DNA from: Bifidobacterium sp. ESL0704 | GTDB taxonomy: Bacteria; Actinomycetota; Actinomycetes; Actinomycetales; Bifidobacteriaceae | Direction: 5' to 3' | Length of the DNA stretch: 64,000 bases | NCBI RefSeq assembly: GCF_029392075.1 | Contig: NZ_CP113929.1 | Span: forward strand, 124,001 to 188,000 | In this document: one piece after another, positions 5,973 through 31,376 of the stretch | How positions within the stretch are numbered: the first letter of the stretch is position 1 | Layout: each line of letters starts with the position of its first letter | The notes under the pieces: generated by a model | Seen by the model: only the letters and a program-made list of their open reading frames with translations | Databases searched by the model: none | What the model was told of the DNA's origin: nothing | Position numbers and translations under genes: made by a program

Positions 5973-6599
5973 ATTCTTATTTTCCGATAATTGCGTAAAA
6001 AAAGTAAGACTTTAAAAATAGTGCTTACGTTTGACGTTTACGTATAGCGTATTAAAACTGGTTGATGTTTCGCCTAAAATAATAATATGTATTGCATTGA
6101 TAGCAAGAAAAGCCAATTGGCAGTAAGGTTTACGGCGGATTTCTTCACAAGATAATATTAATAATTTATTTGTAATAAATAAAAGTAAAATACTCAAAAG
6201 AGGACTGCAAATTCACAGAAACACTTTACGTCAAAAGTTTTATTTAATTTATAAAAATATTTAGTAAAAATGAATAACGACTCAAATTTTCGTCGACAGC
6301 ATAAAACAATAGCGCTTTTTGCACTGTATATATTGCATATCGCCATGCTCTTGCTGTCATGTTAAGTGCTTGGACTGGCTCGCGTCAGGCTTGTACCTTT
6401 TGTGGCGTGTTGTGCGATATTTCGACATTGACCGTGTATAGTTGTTTTTGAGTCCGATGGGGAAGGAACCTCGAAAGGCTTCACTCATAATGAAATGAAA
6501 GTGCGGAAATTCGCTTGCCGAGGTTGGCTTGCGGGTGGATGCAAACCCCTTCACAACGGATCGTTCGGCACGTACCTGCCGATGAAAGGAAATTAAATT
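5973..6599. other. AT-rich divergent intergenic region
   Basis: This 627-bp gap separates the HTH gene from msmK. From 5990 to about 6350 it is strongly AT-rich compared with the flanking genes. It must contain the promoters of both divergent genes. The msmK ribosome site is AAAGGA shortly before ATG 6600. I see no convincing -35/-10 pair, operator or RNA gene. Confidence 0.4.
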
Positions 6600-7787: not shown

Positions 7788-7885
7788 GATCGGCGCCGGT
7801 TCGCTGATGTCTTGCTGATGTCTTGATCTACTGATTGTGCTGGCGGCTGGCTACTGGCGTTTTTACGACGTTATGCGGCGTTTTT

Positions 7886-8219
7886 GCGTCGTGAATCCTC
7901 CATTAACTCAGGATGGTGGCGCTTATGTGACGCTGGGGGAGGCTGTTGTGTCGTAAATCCTCCATTGACTGGAGGTAGTGGCGTTTTCGTGACGTTATGT
8001 GGTGGTGGGGCGTCGTGTTTGTTCCGGTAGCCCAGGTTGTTGGAGCTTTTGCGACGCGGTGTGGTGTTTTTGCGTCGTAAATCCGCCATTGACTCAGGTT
8101 GTTGGTGTTTTTGTGACGCTGGGGGGAGGCTGTTGCGTCGTGGATCCTCCATTGGCTGGAGGTGGTGGCGGATTTGTGACGCCAAGGCTTGCCATTGCGT
8201 CGTGAAACTGCCAGGAGCC
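7886..8219. repeat. 62-bp tandem hairpin array (5 units plus a partial)
   Basis: Units starting GCGTCGT (or GTGTCGT) begin at 7886, 7948, 8010, 8072, 8135 and 8197, giving spacings of 62, 62, 62, 63 and 62 bp. Most units begin with GCGTC and end with GACGC, so the unit can fold on itself. An inner hairpin CCTCCATTGACTGGAGG or CCTCCATTGGCTGGAGG is kept in two units. The third unit is the most diverged. No ORF is credible here. It lies between msmK and the DUF4032 gene. Confidence 0.85.
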
Positions 8220-11267: not shown

Positions 11268-11403
11268 ACTCCCAATTGTCCCAGCACCCCGCGCCAACGT
11301 GCTCGGCGAATGCAAGCTGCGAGCAAAATCAGGATTAGAGGACCGAAGTCTTGATTTTCATCGCATGAGCGGTACGTTTAGGGTTTTATCGGTCGTGCGG
11401 ATT

Positions 11404-11722
11404 GTGATTATCTCTGCGTTGAGCCTGTTGGTGCAGGGGTAATCACGGAAATGGGCTGGAAAGTGTGATTGTCTCTGTAAAAGTGTCGGTTGTGCAGAGA
11501 AAATCACGGGAATGGGCTGGGAGGTGTGATTGTCTCTGTAAGGGTACCGGTTATGCAGAGATAATCACGGAAATAGGCTGGAAAGTGTGATTTTCTCTGT
11601 AAAAGTGTCGGTTGTGCAGAGATAATCACGGAAATAGGCTGGAAAGTGTGATTTACTCTGTGGATAGGCTGTTGATGCAGAGATAATCACGGGAATGGGG
11701 CCAAAACCGTGATTATCTCTGC
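11404..11722. repeat. 61-bp tandem hairpin array (5 units plus a half)
   Basis: GTGATT begins at 11404, 11465, 11526, 11587, 11648 and 11709, an exact 61-bp period. In each of the first five units GTGATTNTCTCTG (slightly varied) is followed after about 16-20 bases by CAGAGATAATCAC, forming a 12-13 bp stem; the sixth site has only the left arm. The loops vary more than the arms. Units are joined by GGAAATRGGCTGGAAAGT. This stretch between rlmB and dcd holds no plausible gene. Confidence 0.92.
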
Positions 11723-12419: not shown

Positions 12420-13160
12420 ACGTTCCTCCAGATTGGGTTACGCTCCGAGCGCTCGGCTAGACAGAACCGTGGAAACCGCGATGTTGTCTAGTCAACGTTG
12501 GATTACTTTCTGCTTCCAAGTGTAGACGTTACCGACGTCGAAACAGGCTTGATGCCCGTACGTAGCGGATTCGTGAGTCGGAATAGGGCCTCGAGGCATT
12601 TTGGCATTGTGCTTTTACCCGCTGTTCCGGTGCCTGTTCCGTGCCTGTTCCGGTGCCTGTTCCGTGCCTGTTCCGGTGCCTGTTCCGTGCCTGTGCCGGT
12701 GCCTGTTCCGTGCCTGTTCCGTGCCTGTTCCGGTGCCTGTTCCGTGCCTGTGCCGGTGCCTGTTCCGTGCCTGTGCCGGTGCCTGTTCCGGTGCCTGTTC
12801 CGGTGCCTGTGGGCCATGTTCGTCATCGCCTTTTTGCCGATTGAACTTCGCCCGGCCTTGATGTTTGATGTCTAGTGTCGGAATCTTGAATCGAGGGTGT
12901 TTGCCGCTGGTGGTAGCCGCCTGGCCGTTGATGCTGGCCGTTAATGTCTGGCCTATGGCATTTACACTGATGTATTTGCGCGCCAGGGCACGGAGGCACG
13001 GCGTTGTGGGCTTGCGCTCGAATCGTCAGGTTACGGAGGTTTCGTATATGCTTGGGGACGGGAAATTTTGGCGAAAATCCGGGAAAACAGGCGGAACGAC
13101 AATAATTTTCAGGTAATTTTCAGGTAATCCGATTCTTGCGCCAAGGATAGTGTAGTTATA
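12420..13160. other. Large intergenic region with minisatellite
   Basis: This is the first part of a gap of nearly 1.2 kb between dcd and the gene at 13602. The 5' end must hold the dcd promoter, reading leftward. Apart from the minisatellite at 12622-12810 I see no supported feature; short ORFs here are repeat-encoded or shadow frames. The 3' end holds a possible promoter for the RNA candidate that follows. Confidence 0.4.
12622..12810. repeat. 11/12-bp minisatellite, 16 copies
   Basis: Sixteen tandem copies of CTGTTCCGGTGC (12 bp, nine copies) or CTGTTCCGTGC (11 bp, seven copies) run without interruption. Some 12-mers carry CTGTGCC instead. The mix of 11 and 12 bases keeps no single reading frame, which argues against a coding role. 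It lies upstream of dcd. Confidence 0.95.
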
Positions 13161-27107: not shown

Positions 27108-28013
27108 ATGTCTGCAACTACAATTCCCGCAACTTCTGTTTCGCCGGCTTCCGTTTCTTCAGTCCCGTCCGGCTCAGGAGAGAAACCCAAGAAATACCGC
27201 CGAGACCACAACATCAATTGGTGGCTTACCGCGCTTATCGCGGTACTTTCACTGACGGTGCTTGTTCCGTTGTATTTCACCGTTGTCACCGCATTGAAGA
27301 CGCCGGCCGAAGCTGGTACGTTCGCTTTGCCGACGAGCTGGCAATGGCATAATTTCGCCGACGCCTCGGCCAAGGTGAACTACCCCAAGGCCGCGCTCAA
27401 TTCGGCGATCATCACCGTCGCGTCCGTGCTGTTGACGCTGCTGACCAATACCTTCGTGGCCTACGCCATCGCCCGCAATATGGATAAGCGCTTCTTCCGC
27501 TTCCTGTATTACTTCTTTATCGCCGCGATGTTCGTGCCGTTCCCCGTCATCATGCTCCCGCTGGCCAAGCAGATGGGTTCGTGGCACCTCGACAACCAGC
27601 TCGGTCTAATCATCCTGTACACCGTGCTCGGCCTGGGCACGAACCTGTTCATTGCCACCGGCTTCATCCGTTCGATTCCGGTCTCGCTTGAGGAGGCCGC
27701 GCGTATCGACGGGGCAAGTACCTGGACCATTTTCTGGAGGATCATCTTCCCGTTGATGGGCCCGATCAACGCCACCATCGGCATTCTCACGGCGCTGTGG
27801 GCTTGGAATGACTTCCTGATGCCGTTGATTGTCTTGACCGACCAATCGAATCAGACCATTCCGTTGGCTCAGTATGTCTTCAGCTCGCAGTTCGCCACAA
27901 ACTATCCGATGGCGTTCGCCAGCTATCTGATGGCCATGGCCCCAATCCTCATCGTCTACATCTTCGCCCAAAAGTGGGTTGTAGGAGGGGTGATGCGTGG
28001 GGCCTTAAAGTAA
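27108..28013 (+). CDS. Sugar ABC importer permease 2 (MalG/MsmG type)
   Basis: This is a 301-aa permease with six membrane segments and an EAA loop EEAARIDGASTWTIFWRIIFPL. The frame is open upstream to 26808, but ATG 27108 gives the normal family N-terminus (MSATTIPATSVSP) and follows a GAGGAAAGG site 14 bases after the preceding stop. It is the last gene of the operon; a repetitive hairpin array starts almost at the stop codon and may terminate or process the message. Confidence 0.95.
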   Translation: MSATTIPATSVSPASVSSVPSGSGEKPKKYRRDHNINWWLTALIAVLSLTVLVPLYFTVVTALKTPAEAGTFALPTSWQWHNFADASAKVNYPKAALNSAIITVASVLLTLLTNTFVAYAIARNMDKRFFRFLYYFFIAAMFVPFPVIMLPLAKQMGSWHLDNQLGLIILYTVLGLGTNLFIATGFIRSIPVSLEEAARIDGASTWTIFWRIIFPLMGPINATIGILTALWAWNDFLMPLIVLTDQSNQTIPLAQYVFSSQFATNYPMAFASYLMAMAPILIVYIFAQKWVVGGVMRGALK

Positions 28014-28440
28014 AAAATCGAAGATTTTTAGAAGAACCCTGTGGGTTCTTCGGCTTTAAGGCCCTTGGCGGGACCGCCAAGAAAGAATTGAGTCCGCCCG
28101 TAAGGGCGGTCAAAAATGGCAGGCGCGGTTAAGTAAATCCTTCGGATTTAGAAAAGCCCTGTGGGCTTTTCGACTTCACTGCCCTCGCCGGAACCGGCGA
28201 GAAGGTATTGAGCCCGTCCGAAGGGCGGTCAAAAATTGCAGGACCGGTTAAATAAAAAATCGGAGATTTTTTAGGGGAGCCCTGTGGGCTCCCCGACTTT
28301 ACTGCGCTGGCCGGAATCGGCCAGAAGGGATTGAGTCAATCCGAAGGGCGGTCAATAATGGCACGAACCCGTCAAGTAAAAAATCGAAGATTTTTAGAAG
28401 AACCCTGCGGACTCCTATCTCCAACAGCCCTCGCCCAGAT
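28014..28440. repeat. Tandem ~120-bp units of four covarying hairpins
   Basis: Three full units (from about 28007, 28130 and 28249) and a partial fourth (28375) each carry hairpins in the same order. P1: AAAAATC/GATTTTT, AAATCC/GGATTT, AAAAAATC/GATTTTTT. P2 with loop TGT: GAAGAACCC/GGGTTCTTC, GAAAAGCCC/GGGCTTTTC, GGGGAGCCC/GGGCTCCCC. P3: CTTGGCGG/CCGCCAAG, CTCGCCGG/CCGGCGAG, CTGGCCG/CGGCCAG. P4: CCGCCC/GGGCGG and CCGTCC/GGGCGG, lost in unit 3. Stems change on both arms together while the loops and joining sequences (TTGAG, GGTCAAAAATGGCA) stay similar. Unit 4 is decayed after P2. There is no ORF. Confidence 0.93.
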
Positions 28441-28643
28441 CAACCCTCCTTCAAACCCGTTTCATCGGGCGCCGATTCAGAAATGCCCAATGAAACGGTT
28501 TCCGGGGTTATGCCTTCATTCAAAGGGCTCTCACTATTGAGTTTTGTGAGGTAAGATACATATATAGGTATGTGCCTTTGTGAGGGCAGACCTGAGTCCG
28601 CCTCTCGCATGCAGCAGTATCCACGGCGAAGTGAGGAGTAATT
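28441..28643. promoter_or_regulatory. Upstream region of otsAB
   Basis: This region lies between the decayed last repeat and the trehalose gene. ACATA-TATAGG-TATGT near 28558 is a small inverted repeat. An inverted CCGTTTCATCGGGC / CCCAATGAAACGG pair lies near 28458-28502. GAGGAG precedes ATG 28644. Promoter hexamers are not clear. Confidence 0.35.
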
Positions 28644-31376
28644 ATGGCTCGTTTAATTATTGTTTCCAATAGACTTCCGGTGTCTCTGCATGCCAAACCC
28701 GATGGTACTTACGCACTGAAGCAAAGCATCGGTGGTCTGGCCACGGCAATTGGCCCGTACCATAAGTCCCATAACGATTGTCTGTGGGTCGGCTGGAGCA
28801 GCATCGATCCCGAAACGCGCACGAAGGTCGAAATCGACAAGATTCGTGACGAATTCGCGCGTCGCCGCTGCGTTCCGATTTTCCTGACCCAGCGGGAGAT
28901 CGACGGATATTACGCCGGATATTCCAACGATACGCTGTGGCCCCTGTTCCACGACTTCGCGCATGAGGCCAAGTTCGATTCGTCCACTTGGAAGATTTAT
29001 CAAGAGGTCAACCAGAAGTTCGCCGATACCGTCGCTCAGCTCGTCAACCCTGACGATACCGTGTGGATTCAGGATTATCATCTTTTGCTGCTCCCGGCCA
29101 TGCTACGTGCTAATTTCCCCAAGCTCAAAATCGGTTGGTTCCTTCATATTCCGTTCCCGAGCCCCGAGATTTTTCGCCAGCTTCCCAACGGCAAGGATTT
29201 GCTCGAAGGCCTGATGGGTGCGGATCTGCTGGGCTTCCACACCGAAGATTTCTGTGTGAATTTCCTGGCTTCTGTCCGTGCACTTATAGGCATCGAGGTC
29301 GACAAGGATGGCCGCATTCCTGTCGGGAACGGCGCGTCGCAACGTTTCGTCACGGTCGACGCCTTCCCCATAGGCATCGATTACGGCCTTTACCGCCGCA
29401 ACGCCCATTCCAGCCTCGCACAGGCCATGCGCCACGGCATCGAGGCCGTCAGCGGCAAGCGCACAAGGCGAGTCAGCACCTCGTTGACCGCAGAATCCCA
29501 GGCCGCAGCGGAGGCGAGCGATCAGGAAGAAAACTGGTGGAGCGCCCATACAGGTGACGAACTTCCCGAGGTCGAGCTTGCACAGTCGGCCGCGGCCAAA
29601 CGTGGCACCGAAGACAACAAGGTGGTCGTCTCTGTCGACCGCCTCGATTACACGAAGGGCTTGCCGGAGCGTCTGCGTGCATTTGATTTGATGCTGAGCC
29701 GCTATCCCGAGTGGGTCGGCCACGTTACGTATTACCTTTTGGCGACGCCTACGCGCGAGGACGTGGAGACATATCGCAAGTTGAAAGATCAGGTCGATCA
29801 GCTCGTCGGTGAGATTAACGGCAAGTATTCGCTTCTTTCCTGGGAGCCGATCCATTACATCACCCGTTCCCTGCCCATCAAGCCGGTTTGCGGTATCTAT
29901 ACGGCAGGCGACGTGGCGCTGGTCACCCCGCTTCGAGACGGCATGAATCTGGTCGCCAAGGAATATCTGGCCGCTCGCGATGGCCGTGACGGTGCGCTGG
30001 TGCTTTCCGACGAATGCGGTGCCGCCCGTGAGTTGACGGACGCGTTCATCGTCAACCCTTATGACACCGAAGCGGTGTGCGAAGCGCTGCATTCGGCCTT
30101 GGAGATCAGTTCTAGTGAGGCCAAGCGCCGCAATGCCGCCATGCAGGCCCGTCTGAAGTATCGCACCGCAGGATTGTGGAGTGCGGAATTCCTGAGCACA
30201 TTGCGTCAGGTCAGTGATCCGCGTATGGCCGATCGTCGCCTGCAAAGTGCCCAACGCGACCATCTGGTTCGCGAGTGGGGTCAATCGAAGCACAAGCTTG
30301 TGCTGTGCGATTACGACGGCACCTTGACGCAAATCGTGCGTACGCCGGGCCGTGCCAAGCCGACGCATCGTTTGCTTGATTTGCTGCGCGAGGTTGGCTC
30401 CATCCCTGATGTCGATCTTTATCTGGTCTCCGGCCGTACCCGCGAGACGATGAACGAGTGGTTCGGTTGCCTGCCGATCGGTCTGATTGCCGAGCACGGG
30501 GCTTGGCACACCAAGCCGATTGCCGGGGAAACCGCCAAAAACGCGGACGGCAGGACGATTACTCCCAAGCGTTACTGGCGGCGTGCCGACGGTCTTCCAG
30601 ACCCCGACGAGTGGCGTCCGATTATCGAGACCATTATGAACAAATCCGTCTCCCGCGTTCCGCAGTCGTTCATCGAATACAAGTCCACGGATCTGGCGTG
30701 GCACTATCGCATGAGCGACCAGAAGCTGGCTCTGGAGCAGCGCGAACGTCTGGTTGACGAGCTGAACAAGGTCTGCCCGCAGTATGGCTTGACGGTCATG
30801 CGCAATGCTAAGGTCATCGAGGTCTGCCCGGCTAACGTCAGCAAGGGCGAGGCGGTAAAACCCCTGTTGGGAAGCGGTCGGTACGATTTCGTGCTCGCGT
30901 TGGGTGATGACACCACCGACGAAACCATGTTTACTGCGGTATCCGGCTGTGCGCCCGCCAAAGATCAGGACGATGTGCTCGGGGCGTTCGAAGCCGACAA
31001 CGCTGGTGCTGCTAAGGTCGGTGTCGCGCAGTCATCTGCCACTGTCGGTACGACGATGTCTGAAAGTGACGCCGCGAAACCCGCCAAAAAGCCCGCAGAG
31101 CCCGAAGTCGCGTGGACCATCAAGGTCGGTGCCGGAGAGACCAACGCCCATTCGCGCATCGCCACCCCGACCGATACCGCGCGATTGCTGGGCTACCTGG
31201 TGGCTGAATCCGAGGCCGTCGCCGCCGGTACAGCACTTGACGATAAGCCGCAAACCAAGCCTAGGAACAAGAACAAAAAAGCCTCGAAGGCGAAAACTCC
31301 GACGAAAATGAAAGCTTCTACGAAGGTTAAGGCCGCGGCAAAAGCCAAGTCCGCTTCCAAGGCGACGTCGAAATAA
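28644..31376 (+). CDS. otsAB: Fused trehalose-6-phosphate synthase/phosphatase
   Basis: This is a 910-aa two-domain enzyme. The GT20 synthase comes first ([15 protein letters not shown], then [13 protein letters not shown] near 142 and [14 protein letters not shown] near 331) and makes trehalose-6-phosphate from UDP-glucose and glucose-6-phosphate. The HAD phosphatase follows (DYDGTL near 556, [10 protein letters not shown] near 751) and releases trehalose, a stress protectant. Two inserts stand out: a linker of about 50 residues before the VDRLDYTKG motif and an Ala/Asp-rich one in the phosphatase. The last 40 residues are a Lys/Ala tail of KAKT/KASK type. GAGGAG before ATG 28644 fixes the start. 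Confidence 0.94.

Follow-up and report, generated by a model that had tools for sequence, protein, structure and literature searches.

Folded repeats behind Bifidobacterium genes whose first stem pairs with host-gene codons

Introduction

How can the two arms of a stem change together from one tandem copy to the next, and what is the element that does so directly behind a permease gene of Bifidobacterium? The question arose from a DNA stretch of 64,000 nt (hereafter the window), in which a sequence-only reading described three units of four hairpins starting at position 28014, the last unit decaying, with stems rewritten on both arms at once. On that reading, either the fold itself is important, in RNA or in single-stranded DNA, or templated repair corrects the arms; the units were assigned to no known family. 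Template switching in inverted repeats, according to the accessible text of PMC8794818, rewrites both stem arms of RNA genes at once and leaves perfect pairing, and the accessible text of PMC8604942 extends it to coding DNA, in which codons and amino acids can change when an arm is coding.

The array in the window

The tandem array lies at 28000–28410 and consists of three units and a decayed fourth (Table 1). Tandem Repeats Finder gave a span of 28005–28414, with a period of 123 and 3.4 copies, and a repeat search yielded unit-to-unit spacings of 120 and 123. The folding energy of 27990–28460 was −197.6 kcal/mol, against −153.2 (sd 5.9) for 100 dinucleotide shuffles, none of which was as good (z −7.55). 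Covariation was judged by counting paired cells against shuffled and arm-slid controls. When the three units were aligned with two units of the orthologous array of genome G092, 96.4% of 110 cells were paired and both sides had changed in 9 of 22 pairs, a value reached by 0 of 500 shuffles; sliding the arms by 1–3 columns lowered the pairing to 35.5–51.8%. These five units contained 13 cells with two-sided and 4 with one-sided changes, the count excluding P1, whose gaps are misplaced by MAFFT, and the outer stem, whose 5' arm falls outside the alignment. P4 is partly broken, helix 3 being paired in 86.7% of cells over the five units.

The tandem structured array with stems rewritten on both arms is thus borne out, and the P2 stems originally quoted, like the P1 and P3 stems, were found where Table 1 places them. 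Other details of the first description needed correction. The location behind the permease was right, but the element starts at 28000, inside the permease coding sequence. The four hairpins described are there, but a fifth stem of unit 1, joining 28000–28010 to 28054–28064, had been overlooked, as had the coding nature of its first arm and the dispersal of the family behind many unrelated genes. Three units do exist, but the decayed one is a fourth, present only as a 5' fragment that ends near 28410–28414.

The permease ends in GALK here and in GAVK in all 29 orthologs listed, and the antisense arm of unit 1 matches the altered codon. In units 2 and 3 the antisense arm lacks a match within its own unit and can be read as A-V-K codons. 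Since A-V-K is what the orthologs carry at this place, the outer units look like relics of former first units.

Table 1. Host gene and units of the tandem array (positions in the window)
Feature	Position	Strand	Evidence or remark
Host gene, ABC sugar permease (BPD_transp_1)	27111–28013	+	Open frame; PF00528, E 9.6e-23
Permease stop codon TAA	28011–28013	+	Last permease codons form the 5' arm of the outer stem
Unit 1, outer stem, 5' arm GGGCCTTAAAG (codons ..G A L K)	28000–28010	+	Full pairing with 28054–28064
Unit 1, P1 hairpin AAAAATC-GAA-GATTTTT	28013–28029	+	Fold and sequence
Unit 1, P2 hairpin GAAGAACCC-TGT-GGGTTCTTC	28031–28051	+	Fold, sequence and pair counts
Unit 1, outer stem, 3' arm CTTTAAGGCCC	28054–28064	+	Antisense to the gene tail
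Unit 1, P3 hairpin	28065–28080	+	Fold, sequence and pair counts
Unit 1, tail motif ATTGAG-P4-GGTC..AATGGCAGG	28087–28123	+	Most conserved part of the family
Unit 2	28124–28242	+	Decayed gene-tail copy; P1 28134–28150, P2 28151–28171, P3 28184–28201, tail 28207–28242
Unit 2, old antisense arm CTTCACTGCC	28174–28183	+	
Unit 3	28243–28365	+	P1 28254–28272, P2 28274–28294, P3 28307–28324, tail with broken P4 28330–28365
Unit 3, old antisense arm CTTTACTGCG	28297–28306	+	
Unit 4, 5' fragment (gene-tail copy, P1, 5' half of P2)	28369–28410	+	93% identity to unit 1, 28003–28044

Downstream of the array lies a trehalose-phosphate synthase gene, which is not a host gene. The window contains further repeats: a tandem array at 11403–11721 (period 61, about 5 copies), with inverted arms like CAGAGATAATCAC and GTGATTATCTCTG in each unit and variants on both arms; another at 7884–8182 (period 62, 4.8 copies) with inverted ends resembling GCGTCGT...GTGACGC; and about 16 copies of the 12-nt tandem repeat CTGTTCCGGTGC at 12622–12810. 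Rfam identified an msiK RNA motif at 6538–6597 (65.5 bits).

Distribution and layout of the family

A blastn search with the array against 112 Bifidobacterium genomes yielded matches in 27, at other gene ends. A model of the conserved 3' part, R1, was built from 31 copies and matched 75 of the 112 genomes at E 0.01 or better, 22 of these 75 having contributed sequences to the model; the maximum was 33 matches in one genome (G043). The unit 1 tail was matched by R1 at genome positions 152085–152129 (E 7.2e-8), its sequence being itself in the building set, and units 2 and 3 were matched with E values of 3.4e-9 and 8.2e-6. The R1 search also revealed a second array in the genome of the window, behind leuD. 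Among 297 genomes of the order, 14 of them Bifidobacterium, matches were found in 7, all of the genus, and in 0 of the 283 others. The tail pattern occurred in 75 stretches of 84,980 species genomes, 74 from Bifidobacterium and one from a Bacteroidetes MAG, a handful of chance matches being expected by our arithmetic; the named bearers include B. catenulatum subsp. kashiwanohense JCM 15439 and B. subtile. Exact matches to the pattern numbered 0 in viral contigs, which gives no support for a viral carrier. No Rfam 15 family matched the element at the gathering score, either in the window, where the best hit by E-value in 27900–28700 (E 1.2) was unrelated, or at 13 loci of relatives.

The order within a unit is 5' outer arm, optional P1, P2 (loop NGT), 3' outer arm, P3 and the tail ATTGAG-P4-GTC..AATTGCAGG, so that the outer stem encloses P2 and, where present, P1. 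The pattern gave 204 distinct tails, 151 with a P2 by the NGT rule and 53 without. An open frame of at least 100 codons ends within 80 nt before P2 in 129 of the 151 elements, against 32 of 151 in the antisense control. Host genes checked by profile comprise the permease, uppS, a peptidase C1-like gene, a glycosyltransferase, a GHMP kinase, ppa, gnd, leuD, ilvC, lepA and ffh. Judged by their last five residues (GAVKG, GSVKG, RGAVK, SGAVK, RGALK, GAIKG), 52 of 124 distinct gene tails are ABC-permease-like, a name drawn solely from the C terminus except for the gene in the window.

At L066, L099 and L131 the host genes end in WLSR, WLTR or WLGR and their stop codon lies inside the 5' arm of the element, as if it supplied a new C terminus. 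In a frequent form of P3, CCTGAGCGAGGC-GGTA-GCCGAGCGAAGG, two tandem G.A pairs are possible between short helices. At the permease loci L016 and L017 (genomes G102 and G098) the P2 of the first unit differs, and each decayed second unit resembles the first unit of the other locus, the unit order being apparently swapped.

The outer stem and the host-gene codons

In a first unit, the first stem joins the end of the upstream gene (its last codons or its stop codon) to a segment within the element that is antisense to it. An outer stem of at least 8 Watson-Crick pairs was found in 76 of 140 distinct P2 units, against 34 of 695 units with swapped right flanks, and was absent from the other 64. It was present in 75 of 119 units behind an open frame and in 1 of 21 other units; in those 75, the 5' arm was wholly coding in 51, overlapped the stop codon in 23 and lay past it in 1. 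The antisense-arm match follows synonymous codons. When antisense arms were exchanged between copies of one gene, the pairing fell in 5 of 8 gene groups, namely GAVK permeases (n = 13), VKG permeases (n = 39) and gnd (n = 10), each with p 0.0002, ppa (n = 8, p 0.004) and the peptidase ending in MGALA (n = 7, p 0.015); the effect was not significant for uppS (p 0.18), galK (p 0.33) and aga (p 1.0), with n = 3 each. The arm therefore matches the individual gene copy and not merely a protein motif. Inverted copies of the downstream flank with a score of at least 30 were found in 18 of 136 own and 2 of 136 swapped comparisons.

The pyrophosphatase loci

The pyrophosphatase gene ppa is present in 111 of the 112 genomes; of 30 loci examined, 14 carry the tail and 16 do not. 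By eye, the codon after GAC agrees with its antisense partner in 13 of the 14 tail-bearing loci (GTG/CAC in six, GTC/GAC in five, GTT/AAC in one and GCC/GGC in one); at the remaining locus, in G004, GTT stands against GAC, giving a U.G pair. The alignment was restricted to the ten loci free of a nested insert, the four that have one being set aside; in it 97.7% of 348 cells were paired, with two-sided change in 12 of 36 pairs (0 of 500 shuffles as high) and 31.6–50.6% pairing in the slid-arm controls. On a tree from ppa and RNase P sequences, the topology of which was taken as computed, the variable valine codon position underwent five changes of pair state, with no mismatch.

The nested insert, at L192, L195, L196 and L209 (ppa of G068, G024, G055 and G004), is a second hairpin element without the tail motif; it lies downstream of the ppa stop codon and ahead of the first P2, and it comes with a repeated piece of the gene tail.

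The ten-locus alignment supports the initial proposal that folding matters or that the arms are repaired from a template. The sequence-only reading had named two findings that would speak against it, a lack of covariation in a wider alignment and units confined to this locus; the ppa loci do covary, and relatives occur in two thirds of the genus genomes searched. The lack of an Rfam match agrees with its failure to place the units in a known family.

Changes in paired positions

One-sided and two-sided changes numbered 1:31 in the ten ppa loci and 21:53 in RNase P from the same ten genomes (Fisher p 0.003), and G.U cells amounted to 1 of 340 in the element against 97 of 1104 in RNase P (p 9e-11), the RNase P structure used for both comparisons being an RNAalifold prediction and not a curated one. 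Many of the stem changes at ppa are direct flips, for example from C-G to G-C, for which no wobble pair offers a bridge. Two-sided change without intermediates points to template switching, that is, fold-back copying.

The loops and the mismatches point to selection on the folded sense strand. The initial P2 test accepted NGT loops only and could have hidden inverted ones, and it was repeated without a loop rule. Of the 130 triloops then found, 103 were NGT and 0 were the inverse, ACN. Template switching alone would give such inversions, and their absence is expected if the loops are selected. G.U exceeded A.C mismatches in P2 (8:1), in the outer stem under a relaxed rule (11:2), in P3 (5:1) and in P4 (2:0); the pooled ratio of 26:4 has p 3e-5 if the counts are independent, which those from related loci are not. 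The relaxed outer stem also contains 21 G-G and other mismatches, the terminator hairpins of the same loci have a G.U:A.C ratio of 20:5, and in the ppa alignment alone A.C cells (3) exceed G.U cells (1). We take the fixed loops and the G.U excess as signs of selection on the folded sense strand, acting together with template switching, and strand-biased mutation (transcription-linked C-to-T) could also account for the G.U excess.

Transcription and spread

A terminator-like hairpin follows the element at 13 of the 14 filled ppa loci and follows the gene at 13 of the 16 empty ones, which would place the element within the transcribed 3' UTR. Under a stricter rule applied to 123 loci, terminator-like sites beyond the 3' end of the element were only slightly more frequent in the sense direction (31 of 123) than in the antisense direction (24 of 123). 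An intrinsic terminator (GC-rich hairpin plus T run) was considered as the identity of the element and rejected, being contained in 0 of 123 elements; the idea of an integron attC site was set aside after inspection alone.

A copy of the gene tail stands behind the element, with a score of at least 32, at 24 of 107 single-unit loci, against 5 of 518 swapped pairs. At a score of at least 24 there are 38 such loci, about 7 being expected by chance, with direct copies of 12 to 72 nt; at ppa of G017, 66–67 nt are repeated almost perfectly. The segment formed by P3 and the tail is 89–94% identical between elements behind unrelated genes, as for the glycosyltransferase locus L097 and L058, the lepA locus L225 and L152, and the uppS locus L021 and L114. 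Similar elements with an upstream identity below 60% form 104 pairs, a number that overstates spread, since some are nested units of one gene (e.g. ppa). The tail copies suggest insertion; a clean empty site with both flanks aligned was not found, the element-free permease and ppa orthologs being too divergent downstream for junctions to be placed.

Two candidate movers were rejected. Y1 transposase (PF01797) occurs in only 7 of the 112 genomes and not in the genome of the window, and reverse transcriptase (RVT_1, PF00078) in only 8, against 75 with elements. Terminal inverted repeats, sought between the left 40 nt before P2 and the right end, reached a score of at least 16 in 3 of 129 own and 20 of 645 swapped comparisons.

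Discussion

The data show a family of non-coding repeats of about 120 nt, specific to Bifidobacterium, dispersed and placed in the sense direction behind stop codons, with gene-specific pairing, two-sided changes, a direct copy of the gene tail behind the element and decay of later units. We consider it somewhat probable (roughly 55% for the reading as a whole) that these repeats are a mobile, tandemly growing 3'-UTR element that folds on the sense strand and is kept paired both by template switching and by selection on the folded strand. Copies would spread to new gene ends by a mobile process for which the Y1 and RVT_1 candidates are too rare, and after arrival the element would multiply in tandem on the side next to the gene. 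While the folded strand is replicated, template switching would rewrite one arm from the other, and the gene codons and the element would therefore change together. Selection would keep the folded sense strand, most likely as an mRNA 3'-UTR structure that shields or shapes the 3' end; single-stranded DNA is less likely as the selected form.

Ordinary compensatory selection on a functional 3'-UTR RNA, in which one arm mutates alone and its partner follows, would dispense with template switching. It would fit stems that vary while loops and tail stay, the excess of G.U over A.C, and the sense orientation behind genes, but the intermediates that it requires are almost absent at ppa when compared with RNase P, and many flips lack a wobble bridge; we regard it as unlikely. 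We judge no more favorably the proposal of a selfish single-stranded DNA element like REP/BIME, with hairpins serving as substrate for a transposase or recombinase and the gene-tail pairing arising as a by-product of insertion and hairpin-templated correction. Dispersal, tandem growth and tail copies agree with it, as do the loops: hairpins with GNA or GNNA loops have particular stability as DNA; 101 of 127 P4 loops are GNA, and at least 34 of 61 P3 loops are GNNA, of which 29 have a pyrimidine in the third position and so are not GNRA. Against this stand the rarity of both candidate enzymes relative to the elements and the lack of a terminal inverted repeat, and the long upkeep of coding-side pairing at ppa after insertion is left unexplained by such an element itself.

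Were the arrays only a mutational by-product, old tandem repeats would have been turned into perfect palindromes by template switching, with no selected function. The very perfect arms and the double changes would be expected, and switching is known to homogenize arms, also in coding DNA, in the accessible text of PMC8794818 and PMC8604942. Loop-inverting switches should, however, have produced ACN loops, P3 and the tail are conserved across unrelated genes, and the repeats sit just behind stop codons in the sense direction, all of which makes this reading very improbable.

The mobile 3'-UTR element favored here may, more tentatively, be welded to its host gene: with half of the fold made of host codons, and gene and element locked together by fold-back copying, it could act as a template that edits C-terminal codons and occasionally amino acids, as the GALK permease with its matching antisense arm, beside the GAVK orthologs, would illustrate. 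As part of the same tentative proposal, the array would preserve earlier versions of the gene end, in which the outer-unit arms GCAGTGAAG and GCAGTAAAG, both read as A V K, might represent older tails.

Small dispersed folded repeats are a known kind of element, and the host-specific antisense arm that covaries with codons is not met in Rfam or in the literature searched; no paper describing this element appeared among the titles and abstract openings, most subscription papers being outside the search. The template switching of PMC8794818 and PMC8604942 is similar, judging from their accessible text, in that both arms are rewritten, pairing is perfect and coding arms may change, but the events there are scattered over RNA genes and yeast genes, whereas here a dispersed family sets an antisense arm behind many genes, so the process recurs. 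REP/BIME sequences with RAYT transposases are likewise, in the accessible part of PMC2817692, short hairpin repeats scattered over extragenic DNA, frequently in runs of several. REPs alternate, whereas neighboring palindromes do not in the window or in the other arrays, which are direct repeats; a gene-matched arm is added here, and 105 of the 112 genomes have no Y1 transposase. The pneumococcal BOX, RUP and SPRITE repeats are small, dispersed and predicted to fold when transcribed, and SPRITE adjoins the 3' ends of genes; they belong to another genus, fold differently and are set apart here by description, the accessible text of PMC3049150 describing no host-gene-specific arm. MITEs are also small, non-coding and dispersed, with direct copies of flanking sequence, but the element lacks terminal inverted repeats, its direct copies vary in length and no parent transposon was found.

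If this reading is true, a non-coding dispersed element and coding sequence evolve together, base for base, at the synonymous sites of dozens of genes within a single genus. The loci would then offer natural replicates for the old question of whether paired stem changes arise by selection acting on one side at a time or by template switching in one step. An important gut genus would have a structured 3'-UTR family behind core genes such as ppa, gnd, leuD, uppS, ilvC, lepA and ffh, with the warning that coding ends behind which such elements stand would not evolve freely.
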